This document shows, in pieces, positions 60,010 through 64,000 of a DNA stretch of 64,000 nt. Position numbers and translations under genes: made by a program. The first letter of the stretch is position 1, and every line of letters starts with the position of its first letter. Source of the stretch: Pseudohongiella spirulinae (GTDB lineage Bacteria; Pseudomonadota; Gammaproteobacteria; Pseudomonadales; Pseudohongiellaceae); NCBI RefSeq assembly GCF_001444425.1, contig NZ_CP013189.1:62001-126000 (forward strand), written 5' to 3'. The notes under the pieces were generated by a model. It made no database searches, was not told the DNA's origin, and worked only from the letters and a program-made list of their open reading frames with translations.

Positions 60010-61017
60010 GTGAAAAAACAGTTTCTATTATCAGCTGCCGTTGCAGTAGCCGTTGCCGGCAGCGCGATTGCGGACGATAACTACAGCGCTCCGCTGAATG
60101 AGTGGGGACAGCCAGATCTGCGTGGCGTATTCAATTTCAGCTCCAATACGCCGATGGAGCGAAATCGCCAATACGGTGATCGCCAGTTTTACACGGCTGA
60201 AGAGGTGATTGAGCGTGACCGTCGTATCGCCGAAGAGGCTGCTGCAAGCGATGGTCAATCCTCACAGGGTGGTGTCGGTGGTTATAACCGTGCCTGGGTA
60301 GAAGATATGCCCCAGGAACTGAACCTGCGCACTTCCATTATTATCTACCCCGAAGATGGCCGGACGCCGGCACGCGTCCCGGGTGCCCCGATCGCATTTG
60401 GCGGCCTGGGTCCGGACTATGACGGTGAACGACCCGTGCGCGTAGCGGTGGGCGGTATTGGTAAAGATGGCCCCGAAGATCGTGGTATTTCTGAGCGCTG
60501 CCTGTTGGGTTTCAACTCCGTGCCGCCTTTTACACCCAGCATGTACAACAACAATGTACAGTTGTTCCAGACCGAAGATCACGCCGTGATCATGAACGAA
60601 ATGATTCATGAAGCGCGTATTGTTCGTCTGCACGACAAGGATCACCTGCCGGAAAGCATCACTCAGTGGACCGGCGACTCAATTGGCTGGTACGAAGGCA
60701 ACTCGCTGGTTGTTGAAACCAAAAACTTCAACTACAAGTCGCAGACTTTCCGCGGTACCGGTATCTCTTCAAACAAAACCCTGATCGAGAAGTTCACCCG
60801 TACATCAGACGACATCGTGGAGTATGAATTCACTGTCATTGATCCGCTGGCGTTTGAAGACAAGATTGTTGGTGTGGTGCCCATGGTGCAGACCGAAGAG
60901 CCGCTGTTTGAATATGCCTGTCACGAAGGTAACTACGGCATGATCAACATTCTGCAGGGCCAGCGTGTTGAAGACGGCACCTGGGATTATGAAAACAATC
61001 GCGCAATTCGACAGTGA
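60010..61017 (+). CDS. secreted protein of unknown function, paralogue 1
   Basis: 335 residues from the GTG at 60010 (AGGAG eight bases before); the longer frame to 59935 would bury the signal peptide (QFLLSAAVAVAVAGSAIA). No membrane helix after it. Motifs shared with the next gene: a PDLRG/PNFSGIW opening, a central cysteine segment, and WYEGNSLVVETKNF near residue 230 (WDGDTLVIDVTG in the partner). Such proteins are common and often duplicated in marine gammaproteobacteria and related taxa, but I know no function. Confidence 0.75.
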   Translation: MKKQFLLSAAVAVAVAGSAIADDNYSAPLNEWGQPDLRGVFNFSSNTPMERNRQYGDRQFYTAEEVIERDRRIAEEAAASDGQSSQGGVGGYNRAWVEDMPQELNLRTSIIIYPEDGRTPARVPGAPIAFGGLGPDYDGERPVRVAVGGIGKDGPEDRGISERCLLGFNSVPPFTPSMYNNNVQLFQTEDHAVIMNEMIHEARIVRLHDKDHLPESITQWTGDSIGWYEGNSLVVETKNFNYKSQTFRGTGISSNKTLIEKFTRTSDDIVEYEFTVIDPLAFEDKIVGVVPMVQTEEPLFEYACHEGNYGMINILQGQRVEDGTWDYENNRAIRQ

Positions 61018-61029
61018 TAAAGGTTACAC

Positions 61030-61902
61030 ATGAAGACTCAATTTAAAACGATGTTTGCGGTGGCGGCGACCGCTGCTGCGGTCAGCGCATTCTGGGTGAG
61101 CCAGGATGCTTCAGTTGTTCAGGCTCAGCAGTCTGTGGCCAGCAACGAAATTCCCCGTACACCGGATGGAAAGCCAAATTTCAGTGGTATATGGCAGAGC
61201 ATGAGTGCCGCTGAGTGGAGCCTTGAGCCCGCTGAAGCCCGTCATGGTCCGCTGGCTGCACTGCAGGCGGGTGCGCACCTGGCCTTCCCGCCCAGCGTGG
61301 GTTATGTGGAAGGCGGCACCATTCCTTATAAAGCGGGTATGCGTGCTCAGCAGGAAGAAAACAAGCGTAACTGGTTGCAGGGTGATCCGGCCACGCAGTG
61401 CAAACTGCCTGGGGTACCTCGCGCAACCTACATGCCTTATCCTTTCCAGATCTTCCAGGGGCCCGATGCCACCCTGATCAGTTACCAGTTTGCTGGTGCT
61501 GACCGTATTGTCCACATGGACAAGGTTGTGGAAGCGCAGGTTGATACCTGGATGGGCATCAATAATGGCTCCTGGGACGGTGACACGCTGGTGATTGATG
61601 TCACCGGCCAGATGCCAGACACCTGGTTTGACCGCTCCGGTCACTACCATAGCGGCTGGGATATGCACGTCCAGGAGCGCTATACGATGGTTGATCGTAA
61701 CACCATCGATTATTCGGCCACGATTACTGACCCGAATGTATTTGAAGAGCCATGGACCATCAGCATGAAGCTGTATCGTCATCAGGACGAAAACATGCAG
61801 ATGCTGGAATTCAAGTGTGTTGAATTCGTAGAGGAGCTGATTTACGGCCATCTGCGTGCGCCTGGCGACCCGATTGGTGATGGTGTAACACCTATTTACT
61901 GA
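61030..61902 (+). CDS. secreted protein of unknown function, paralogue 2
   Basis: 290 residues, ATG start, signal peptide (MFAVAATAAAVSAFWVSQDASVVQAQ). Begins the mature part with TPDGKPNFSGIWQ, then a conserved PFQIFQGPDATLISYQF and SWDGDTLVIDVTG...W segment, as in paralogue 1. 12 bp downstream of it, so one transcript. Ends before a strong terminator. Confidence 0.75.
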   Translation: MKTQFKTMFAVAATAAAVSAFWVSQDASVVQAQQSVASNEIPRTPDGKPNFSGIWQSMSAAEWSLEPAEARHGPLAALQAGAHLAFPPSVGYVEGGTIPYKAGMRAQQEENKRNWLQGDPATQCKLPGVPRATYMPYPFQIFQGPDATLISYQFAGADRIVHMDKVVEAQVDTWMGINNGSWDGDTLVIDVTGQMPDTWFDRSGHYHSGWDMHVQERYTMVDRNTIDYSATITDPNVFEEPWTISMKLYRHQDENMQMLEFKCVEFVEELIYGHLRAPGDPIGDGVTPIY

Positions 61903-61918
61903 TCGCAGCCATACCAAA

Positions 61919-61967
61919 CACCCGCAGAATGCTGTATAAATAAACAGTATTCTGCGGGTGTTTTTTT
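61919..61967 (+). terminator. intrinsic terminator of the secreted paralogue pair
   Basis: 17-base arms (61919-61935 and 61944-61960) with one G.U pair and an 8-base loop, followed by seven T residues (61961-61967). Its T-run touches the ATG of dnaE2 and its apex contains the LexA box. Confidence 0.88.
61932..61947. promoter_or_regulatory. LexA (SOS) box of dnaE2
   Basis: CTGTATAAATAAACAG is CTGT-N8-ACAG, differing from CTGTATATATATACAG at two inner bases. It lies 20 bases before the dnaE2 ATG and contains TATAAA (61935-61940), which may be the -10 box. Confidence 0.85.
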
Positions 61968-64000
61968 ATGTGTGACTTGCCTGTTGATGCGGCGCCGGAT
62001 TATGCGGAGCTGCATTGTCTGAGTAATTTTTCCTTTCTGCGCGGTGCTTCTCATCCCGAGGAGCTGGTTGAACGTGCCATCGAGCTGGGTTATCGCGCTC
62101 TGGCATTGACTGATGAGTGCAGCCTGTCCGGTGTCGTCAGGGCTTACAGCGCAGTCAAAGCCGCGAAGGCCCGCGGTCAGCCCATCAGACTGATTATCGG
62201 TAGTGAGTTTCGCACGCAAGATGGTCTGCATATTGTGCTGCTGGCTCCAGACCGCAAAGCCTATGCACAATTATCGGCACTGATTACCCGGGCCCGGCGC
62301 GACTGTGCCAAAGGTGACTATCTGCTGAGCCGCCAGATGCTGGAAGAACTGGACCTGCAGTGCTGCCTGGCTTTATGGATCGCGCCACCATCGCCTATCA
62401 GTCGCAACTACTGTGAAATTGCTGCCAGGCAGAGTCTGGCGTGGTTGTCAGAATTATTTCCTGGACGATTGTGGATCGGTGCTCAGCGTTTTCTGGATGC
62501 TGATGACCGTGACAAACAATGGGAGCTGGAGCAGCTTGCTCAGCAAACAGGTGTGCCGATTTGTGCTACTGGCGGTATCCAGATGCATCACCCCTGCAGG
62601 CGAGCACTGCGCGACACGCTGACAGCCATACGGCTGGTAAAACCCCTGGCAGAGCTGGGGTACCAGCTACCCGCCAACGCACAACAGTTTTTGCGTAGCC
62701 GTGCCACCCTGGGGCGGCTGTTCCCGGTTTCCTGGCTGGCAGAAACGCTCAATATAGCAGAACAGTGCAGCTTTTCCCTGTCTGAACTGCGCTATGAATA
62801 TCCACGTGAGCTGGTGCCAGCAGGGCATACGCCTGCCAGTTGGTTGCGCCGTTTAACCTTACAGGGCATGGCGGAACGCTGGCCGGAAGGTGCCTCGCAA
62901 TCGATTCGTGAGCTGCTGGAAAAAGAGTTGTTATTGATTGCAGAGATGGCCTATGAGCATTTTTTTCTGACCGTGCATGACATCGTCATGTTTGCACGCA
63001 GTCAGAACATACTGTGCCAGGGGCGAGGCTCGGCAGCGAACTCAGCTGTTTGCTATTGCCTGGGCATAACCGCTGTGGATCCCTCCCGTATGCAGTTGCT
63101 GTTTGAACGCTTTCTTTCCAAAGAACGTGATGAACCGCCGGATATCGATGTTGATTTTGAGCATGAGCGTCGCGAGGAAGTCATACAGTATATCTATCGA
63201 AAATATGGCCGCGACCGCGCAGCTCTGGCTGCCACAGTCATCGCCTACCGTCGGCGCAGTGCCATTCGCGATGTCGGGAAAGCCCTGGGCATGGATGCCG
63301 CGCAGATTGATCAGGCACTGAATTGTCTTCGCATGAACAACGACGGACAGTTGGTGAGCATTGATGATATTCAGTTGCCTGAGCCGTTGTTGTTGCGACT
63401 GAGTTTTCTGGTGCAACAGATCATTGGCTTCCCACGGCACCTGTCTCAACATGTAGGTGGTTTTGTGATCAGCGAAGGACCATTGTCTGAACTGGTGCCG
63501 GTAGAAAATGCGAGCATGGCTGACAGAACCGTCATCCAGTGGGAGAAGGATGATCTGGAAGCGCTGGGTCTGTTGAAGGTTGATGTGTTGGCGCTGGGCA
63601 TGTTGACTGCTATCCGTAAATGTCTGGCGCTGGTTTCAGGACGGCGCGGGGAGGCCATGGGCCTGGCCGATGTGCCGGCGGAGGATGCGGCGGTCTATGA
63701 GATGATCGGACGGGCAGATACTGTGGGGGTTTTCCAGATTGAATCGCGTGCCCAGATGAGCATGCTGCCGCGCCTCAGACCGCAGAATTATTATGACCTG
63801 GTAGTGCAGATTGCCATCGTGCGCCCGGGGCCGATTCAGGGCGATATGGTGCATCCATATTTGATGAGGCGACAAGGTAAGCAAGCAGTCACTTATCCTG
63901 GAGAGGCTGTTAAATCTGTGCTGGGGCGTACACTAGGAGTGCCCATTTTCCAGGAACAGGTCATGCAGATTGCTATGGTGGCGGCCGGTTTCAGCGGTGG
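61968..64000 (+). CDS. dnaE2: error-prone DNA polymerase DnaE2, 3' truncated by window edge
   Basis: The frame is open from the ATG at 61968 to the window end (677 residues of an expected ~1030). PHP domain first (YAELHCLSNFSFLRGASHPEELV; LTDECSLSGVVRAY), then the C-family polymerase with metal aspartates in PDIDVDF (D392, D394), the QGRGSAANSAVCYCLG loop and GVFQIESRAQMSMLPR. Translesion polymerase induced by DNA damage; usually works with ImuA/ImuB, which are not upstream here. The ATG is the only start in frame after a TAA at 61941, and only a weak GGGTG precedes it. A LexA box lies 20 bases upstream. Confidence 0.93.
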   Translation, partial: MCDLPVDAAPDYAELHCLSNFSFLRGASHPEELVERAIELGYRALALTDECSLSGVVRAYSAVKAAKARGQPIRLIIGSEFRTQDGLHIVLLAPDRKAYAQLSALITRARRDCAKGDYLLSRQMLEELDLQCCLALWIAPPSPISRNYCEIAARQSLAWLSELFPGRLWIGAQRFLDADDRDKQWELEQLAQQTGVPICATGGIQMHHPCRRALRDTLTAIRLVKPLAELGYQLPANAQQFLRSRATLGRLFPVSWLAETLNIAEQCSFSLSELRYEYPRELVPAGHTPASWLRRLTLQGMAERWPEGASQSIRELLEKELLLIAEMAYEHFFLTVHDIVMFARSQNILCQGRGSAANSAVCYCLGITAVDPSRMQLLFERFLSKERDEPPDIDVDFEHERREEVIQYIYRKYGRDRAALAATVIAYRRRSAIRDVGKALGMDAAQIDQALNCLRMNNDGQLVSIDDIQLPEPLLLRLSFLVQQIIGFPRHLSQHVGGFVISEGPLSELVPVENASMADRTVIQWEKDDLEALGLLKVDVLALGMLTAIRKCLALVSGRRGEAMGLADVPAEDAAVYEMIGRADTVGVFQIESRAQMSMLPRLRPQNYYDLVVQIAIVRPGPIQGDMVHPYLMRRQGKQAVTYPGEAVKSVLGRTLGVPIFQEQVMQIAMVAAGFSG

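Follow-up and report, generated by a model that had tools for sequence, protein, structure and literature searches.

The window analysed here is a stretch of 64,000 nucleotides from the marine bacterium Pseudohongiella spirulinae, and it ends within dnaE2 (imuC), which codes for an error-prone DNA polymerase. The part of DnaE2 encoded within the window scored 945.6 bits against NF004225 (cut-off 939), and its PHP, alpha NTPase and finger domains fit the architecture of error-prone DnaE2 proteins. No alternative in-frame start was found upstream of the ATG at 61968 within the window, and an in-frame TTG at 61977 may serve as an alternative start. Among 13 congeners, 10 have a single candidate start ahead of the aligned dnaE2 domain; in three (L040, L045 and L046), GTG or TTG codons also occur upstream of the ATG.

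Two tandem genes, at 60010-61017 (335 aa) and 61030-61902 (290 aa), precede dnaE2. Both begin with apparent signal peptides, and neither product matched a Pfam or NCBIfam family at E 0.001. Because imuA lies on the opposite strand, facing dnaE2, and the two starts are 8.7 kb apart, dnaE2 is separate from imuA and has its own operator. PMC3901139 describes such a layout, in which dnaE2/imuC stands apart from imuA and imuB under an SOS box of its own. The features of the junction are:

61030-61902, + strand: codirectional upstream gene, 290 aa; its stop codon lies 13 bases before the stem
61912-61917, + strand: TACCAA, at the -35 position for the candidate -10; a poor match (2/6)
61916-61935, + strand: left arm of the predicted terminator hairpin (fold; covariation within the genus)
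61932-61947, no strand: CTGTATAAATAAACAG, the LexA operator by its sequence, forming the apex of the hairpin; full core, conserved 14/14
61935-61940, + strand: candidate -10 TATAAA within the operator; predicted start at about 61947-61949
61944-61963, + strand: right arm of the hairpin and most of the predicted SOS leader (fold; covariation)
61961-61967, + strand: T7 tract touching the dnaE2 ATG, its first three T paired in the stem
61968-64000, continuing past the window, + strand: dnaE2 (imuC), error-prone DNA polymerase, 1045 aa (NF004225)

The hairpin has a stem of 20 pairs, nine of them G-C and one G-U, closed by an 8-base loop (61936-61943). Folded as RNA, positions 61916-61967 reached -33.8 kcal/mol (z -12.1), and none of 200 shuffled sequences was equally stable. 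In a scan of the 64 kb window it ranked first among five terminator-like hairpins (-33.7, against -15.9 for the next). It shares with intrinsic (Rho-independent) terminators a stable, G-C-containing stem followed by a U-tract, and we regard it as a predicted intrinsic terminator, at whose U-tract transcripts would end. It differs from such terminators in that it abuts a start codon, holds a repressor operator, and is predicted to contain the start of the next gene's transcript. A search of 61700-62100 against Rfam at E up to 1 returned matches far under the gathering scores only; the best, to mir-1993 (25 against 82), was taken as chance.

The composite that the initial annotation had described at this junction is real. 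The LexA box does sit at the apex of the terminator, within the hairpin at 61916-61963, the T-run does extend to the dnaE2 ATG, and the Shine-Dalgarno sequence is indeed almost absent, the best anti-SD pairing of the leader being -3.8 kcal/mol. The grading of the SOS box as near-consensus was too low, as the core of CTGTATAAATAAACAG matches CTGT-N8-ACAG at 8/8 positions and its N8 is all A/T. The interpretation placed on the composite is partly supported, as set out below.

The 3.35 Mb single-contig genome has 64 exact copies of CTGT-N8-ACAG against 38 of the reversed pattern, and with one mismatch the pattern occurs 39 times in the window against 26.1 in shuffles, a mild excess; the LexA core by itself is therefore weak evidence. 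The 16-mer CTGTATAAATAAACAG occurs three times in the genome: at dnaE2, before uvrA (31 bases to the ATG) and before a gene for an Lhr-like helicase (19 bases to its first ATG). The last copy lies at L021:1916-1931 (G000:C1:395915), and its identity with the dnaE2 box makes the helicase gene a likely further member of the SOS regulon. Six further boxes were counted upstream of SOS-type genes in this genome, where the other LexA boxes lie at imuA (two), uvrB, lexA and a PA0069-family radical SAM gene. The two boxes at imuA (G000:C1:131848-132709, L019) stand side by side, and the box at L020:1940-1955 separates the radical SAM gene from a 386-aa frame that is divergent to it and has an ATPase-like beginning. 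LexA itself is encoded in the genome (TIGR00498, 228.7 bits against a cut-off of 110.95). Its sequence and this regulon context identify the dnaE2 box as a LexA operator, which would be bound by LexA and make dnaE2 inducible by DNA damage.

The initial annotation had proposed a comparison of the same junction in relatives, and this bore out the arrangement throughout the genus. dnaE2 is present in 14 of 15 Pseudohongiella genomes, and all 14 genes have the composite, that is, a LexA box at the apex, a stem, and a run of T5 to T9 directly abutting the ATG. A chance origin of the composite is excluded by this conservation. The LexA core is full in 13 of the 14 (7/8 in L047), the distance from box to ATG is 18-22 bases, and the fold energies range from -19.6 to -34.3 kcal/mol. 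In the remaining genome, G002, the dnaE2 match is at the level of the replicative polymerase only; imuA is kept, with a LexA box nearby (L258).

The stem is maintained in the genus by compensatory change. In the genus alignment, 93.1% of stem cells are paired against 85.8% in shuffled alignments, 8 of 20 pairs have changed on both sides (3.6 in shuffles), and the covariation score is 0.253 (0.110 in shuffles); for none of these three measures did any of 500 shuffles score as high. The number of additional pair types discriminates less well (14, compared with 11.7 in shuffles, 41 of 500 being as high). When the partners were slid by 1-3 columns, at most 58.8% of cells were paired.

We scored palindromes at dnaE2 boxes elsewhere by pairing outward from the box (+1 for a pair, -2 for a mismatch), a score of 9 or more being called long; outside the genus, pairing was counted in a fixed register because alignment A2 placed gaps in the arms. 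In the family Pseudohongiellaceae, dnaE2 is found in 85 of 137 genomes. We read 72 of the 73 family places outside the genus (G041:C186 was left out) and found a box at 68; at the other four (L186, L202, L205 and L212) there is none within 220 nt, contig ends cutting L202 and L212. Long palindromes surround 22 of these 68 boxes, the remaining 46 having none. Counting distinct boxes, the figure is 20 of 65, against a mean of 1.6 and a maximum of 6 in 500 partner shuffles. Some palindromes (L147, L156, L167, L170, L207 and L209-L211) consist of 13-20 perfect pairs and end within a few bases of the ATG. Of the 63 family dnaE2 genes with a called start, 51 have a box-to-start distance of 17-21. 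Beyond the family, we read 80 places, mostly the best-scoring, among 163 genomes with a match; 24 have a box, and eight of the 24 score at least 9, up to 21 (L295). A collection of named genomes gave 80 loci and, once L066, L069, L070 and L073 had been dropped before the tally as duplicates of genus or family entries, 15 further boxes, one of them in a long palindrome (L139, uncultured Luminiphilus).

Among the boxes tested, the long palindrome is specific to dnaE2: none of 93 control boxes at uvrA, imuA and lexA lies in one. In the family, 27 uvrA and 30 imuA loci gave 35 boxes (14 and 21, respectively) scoring at most 6, under a box rule (8/8 core, at least 6 A/T) to which the dnaE2 rule (7/8 core, at least 5 A/T) is the looser, and with the uvrA control spanning just two genera, those above its cut-off. 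The 58 box-like sites at 30 lexA loci in the order score at most 4; these were found with the dnaE2 rule and so include some chance sites. For family dnaE2 against uvrA and imuA together, Fisher's p is 3e-5. The absence of long palindromes from the other SOS boxes suggests selection for low leak at dnaE2 in particular.

A T-tract placed beyond the stem and touching the ATG was observed in the genus only. Of 107 sites outside the genus, 10 have runs of T5 or longer no more than 28 nt from the box; these runs begin 2-3 nt past the box, mostly inside the right arm, and three of them are in long palindromes (L175, L176 and L215). The orientation of the neighbouring gene, assessed by the longest open frame alone, is not supported as a driver of the palindromes outside the genus, as 7 of 20 sites with a divergent neighbour, 7 of 22 with a codirectional one and 7 of 24 with an unclear one are long. 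With no T-tract after the stem and no codirectional bias outside the genus, stopping transcription from upstream is not what these structures are generally for.

Where would the SOS transcript begin? The initial annotation had placed the start inside the box, so that the message would contain the right arm only. The geometry of family promoters agrees with this. Of 68 family dnaE2 genes, 43 have a TTGACA-like hexamer (5/6 or 6/6) placed exactly 17 nt upstream of TACTGT, and few have one at another spacing (four at 18 nt, one each at 16 and 14). Since the CTGT of this TACTGT, read as the -10, is also the left half-site of the box, the start is predicted inside the box and the SOS transcript would keep the right arm only. 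In the genus, the sequence CTGTATAAAT is invariant across the 14 members. TATAAA could serve there as the -10, and the hexamer 17 nt before it matches at 4/6 in 11 of them, against 2/6 for the TACCAA of the window; a family-type -35 is found in none of the 14 (at most 3/6, over spacings of 16-18 nt to T[AG]CTGT). A sigma-70 scan found no promoter at the dnaE2 junction of the window. Because the genus is without a family-type -35, the start site of the window is placed by analogy. Outside the genus, a canonical -35 is likewise found at none of 13 palindromes scoring at least 13, against 49 of 79 for the others. The loci read (L146-L217 and L276-L353) present two classes of dnaE2 control, TTGACA-N17-TACTGT with a short dyad, or a very long palindrome without a canonical -35.

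We think it probable, with some reserve, that the dnaE2 palindrome is a fold-back insulator that silences messages not begun at the LexA-controlled start. LexA, at the operator in the centre of the palindrome, would block initiation until DNA is damaged. The SOS promoter would then start transcription inside the operator or at its right edge, and the legitimate dnaE2 mRNA would have the right arm only, in a U-rich leader of about 20 nt; if the start follows the promoter geometry of the relatives, the hairpin could not fold in this mRNA. A transcript arriving from upstream would have both arms and would fold a hairpin of -20 to -34 kcal/mol. Judging from folding, the U-tract that reaches the start codon in the genus would terminate such read-through, and in any read-through that was not terminated the hairpin would cover the initiation region. 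The mutagenic polymerase would then come solely from transcripts initiated at the LexA-controlled start. In undamaged cells, LexA bound at the apex may itself be a roadblock to read-through, and the hairpin would hence matter most after LexA has dissociated. The palindromes of other genera and families, which have no U-tract, would act, if at all, by folding back over the translation start.

In folding predictions, positions -14 to -1 are less open in read-through RNA than in SOS RNA for 14 of 14 genus members and for 20 of 22 other long palindromes, L175 being reversed and L176 showing no difference. For the ATG, predicted openness is lower in read-through RNA in just 7 of 14 genus members. 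Possibly, although we put this forward tentatively and at somewhat less than even chance, dnaE2 genes that have an operator to themselves have, more than once across the order, acquired or retained a dnaE2-specific fold-back insulator nucleated on the LexA box. The dyad of the operator would thereby be lengthened into a hairpin that extends to the start codon, so that only transcripts begun inside the operator yield the polymerase, and Pseudohongiella would have made this insulator into an intrinsic terminator; the long-palindrome class would then use a promoter without a canonical -35.

The composite could instead be no more than the terminator of the upstream gene, overlapping the SOS box only because two palindromes are crowded into little room, with no selected discrimination between transcripts. 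The stem does begin 13 bases past the upstream stop codon, with no other terminator-like hairpin there in the P. spirulinae genome, and the upstream gene is codirectional in all 13 genus members with enough flank. However, 7 of 14 members retain the dnaE2 hairpin despite having a further terminator-like hairpin upstream, in some cases a weak one, which is consistent with protection of dnaE2 beyond merely ending the neighbour. Together with the apical box and the T-run at the ATG, held in 14/14, and with the related palindromes at dnaE2 genes whose neighbours are divergent, this makes the plain terminator unlikely. The palindrome might also work as DNA, its longer dyad aiding the binding of LexA or another protein, or extruding as a cruciform, with the RNA hairpin being incidental. 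Most long palindromes outside the genus are perfect in Watson-Crick terms, and they lack a canonical -35, as though the dyad had replaced a promoter element. Yet the arm sequences vary between species while pairing is kept, and the T-tract has no role in a device of this kind. Moreover, in four genus members (L040-L043) the outer stem is out of register with the LexA dyad, a single base being unpaired on the left side and two on the right; the DNA dyad is thereby broken, whereas the outer stem is still complete, as fits an RNA hairpin, which tolerates such an offset. G-U pairs are also tolerated on the sense rather than the antisense strand by 10 to 4, a count that is weak and whose cases are not independent. 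We consider a DNA-level device improbable.

Perfect arms might also have arisen with no function, as a mutational by-product. Template switching perfects quasi-palindromes, which here would be seeded by the LexA box, and yields both perfect arms and paired double changes. Many arms are indeed perfect, and the near relatives L167 and L170 differ by paired double changes. Little credence can be given to this origin when the same seed at uvrA, imuA and lexA was never extended (0/93), when the T-tract and its zero spacing to the ATG are found in 14/14, and when four species (L207 and L209-L211) have nearly identical arms in common. For the preferred reading, a fold-back insulator, the missing canonical -35 in the very long palindromes is the weakest point, and it is also a lead. 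Further points against this reading are the poor -35 of the window, the 46 of 68 family boxes that have no long palindrome, the indifference of palindromes outside the genus to the orientation of the neighbour, and the ATG openness, lower in only half of the genus members.

Transposase genes of the IS10 type and T4 gene e are protected by fold-back from outside transcription. As in the IS10-type devices, read-through mRNA entering dnaE2 would hide the start region of the gene, and the gene's own transcript is predicted to begin inside the palindrome. Those devices guard a transposase at the end of an element, whereas here the gene is a chromosomal repair polymerase under LexA, and the structure in the genus looks like a terminator and not just like a block to translation; we therefore see a resemblance, not membership.

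The LexA-regulated dnaE2/imuC of the ImuABC cassette likewise codes for an error-prone polymerase of the C family and has an SOS box to itself (PMC3901139). Here, in contrast, the SOS box forms the tip of a terminator hairpin that runs up to the start codon, a feature unmentioned in the available part of that article.

Searches of the open full-text literature, a scope taking in few subscription papers, found in titles and the opening lines of abstracts neither a LexA box within a terminator nor a hairpin at dnaE2, and no papers linking Pseudohongiella with LexA. The SOS box, the intrinsic terminator and fold-back protection are each known; their combination in a single palindrome at a start codon, conserved and specific to dnaE2, did not come up in these searches. 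If our reading is true, the palindrome would be a compact genetic part that ties expression to the origin of the transcript, beyond repression alone. The gene so guarded codes for an error-prone polymerase, whose leak is expected to raise mutation rates, and the question of how cells stop pervasive or read-through transcription from expressing costly genes becomes testable by mutations in a single arm.

Two genomes of the family, G041 and G072, each gave two dnaE2 and two imuA matches, possibly representing second mutagenesis cassettes.
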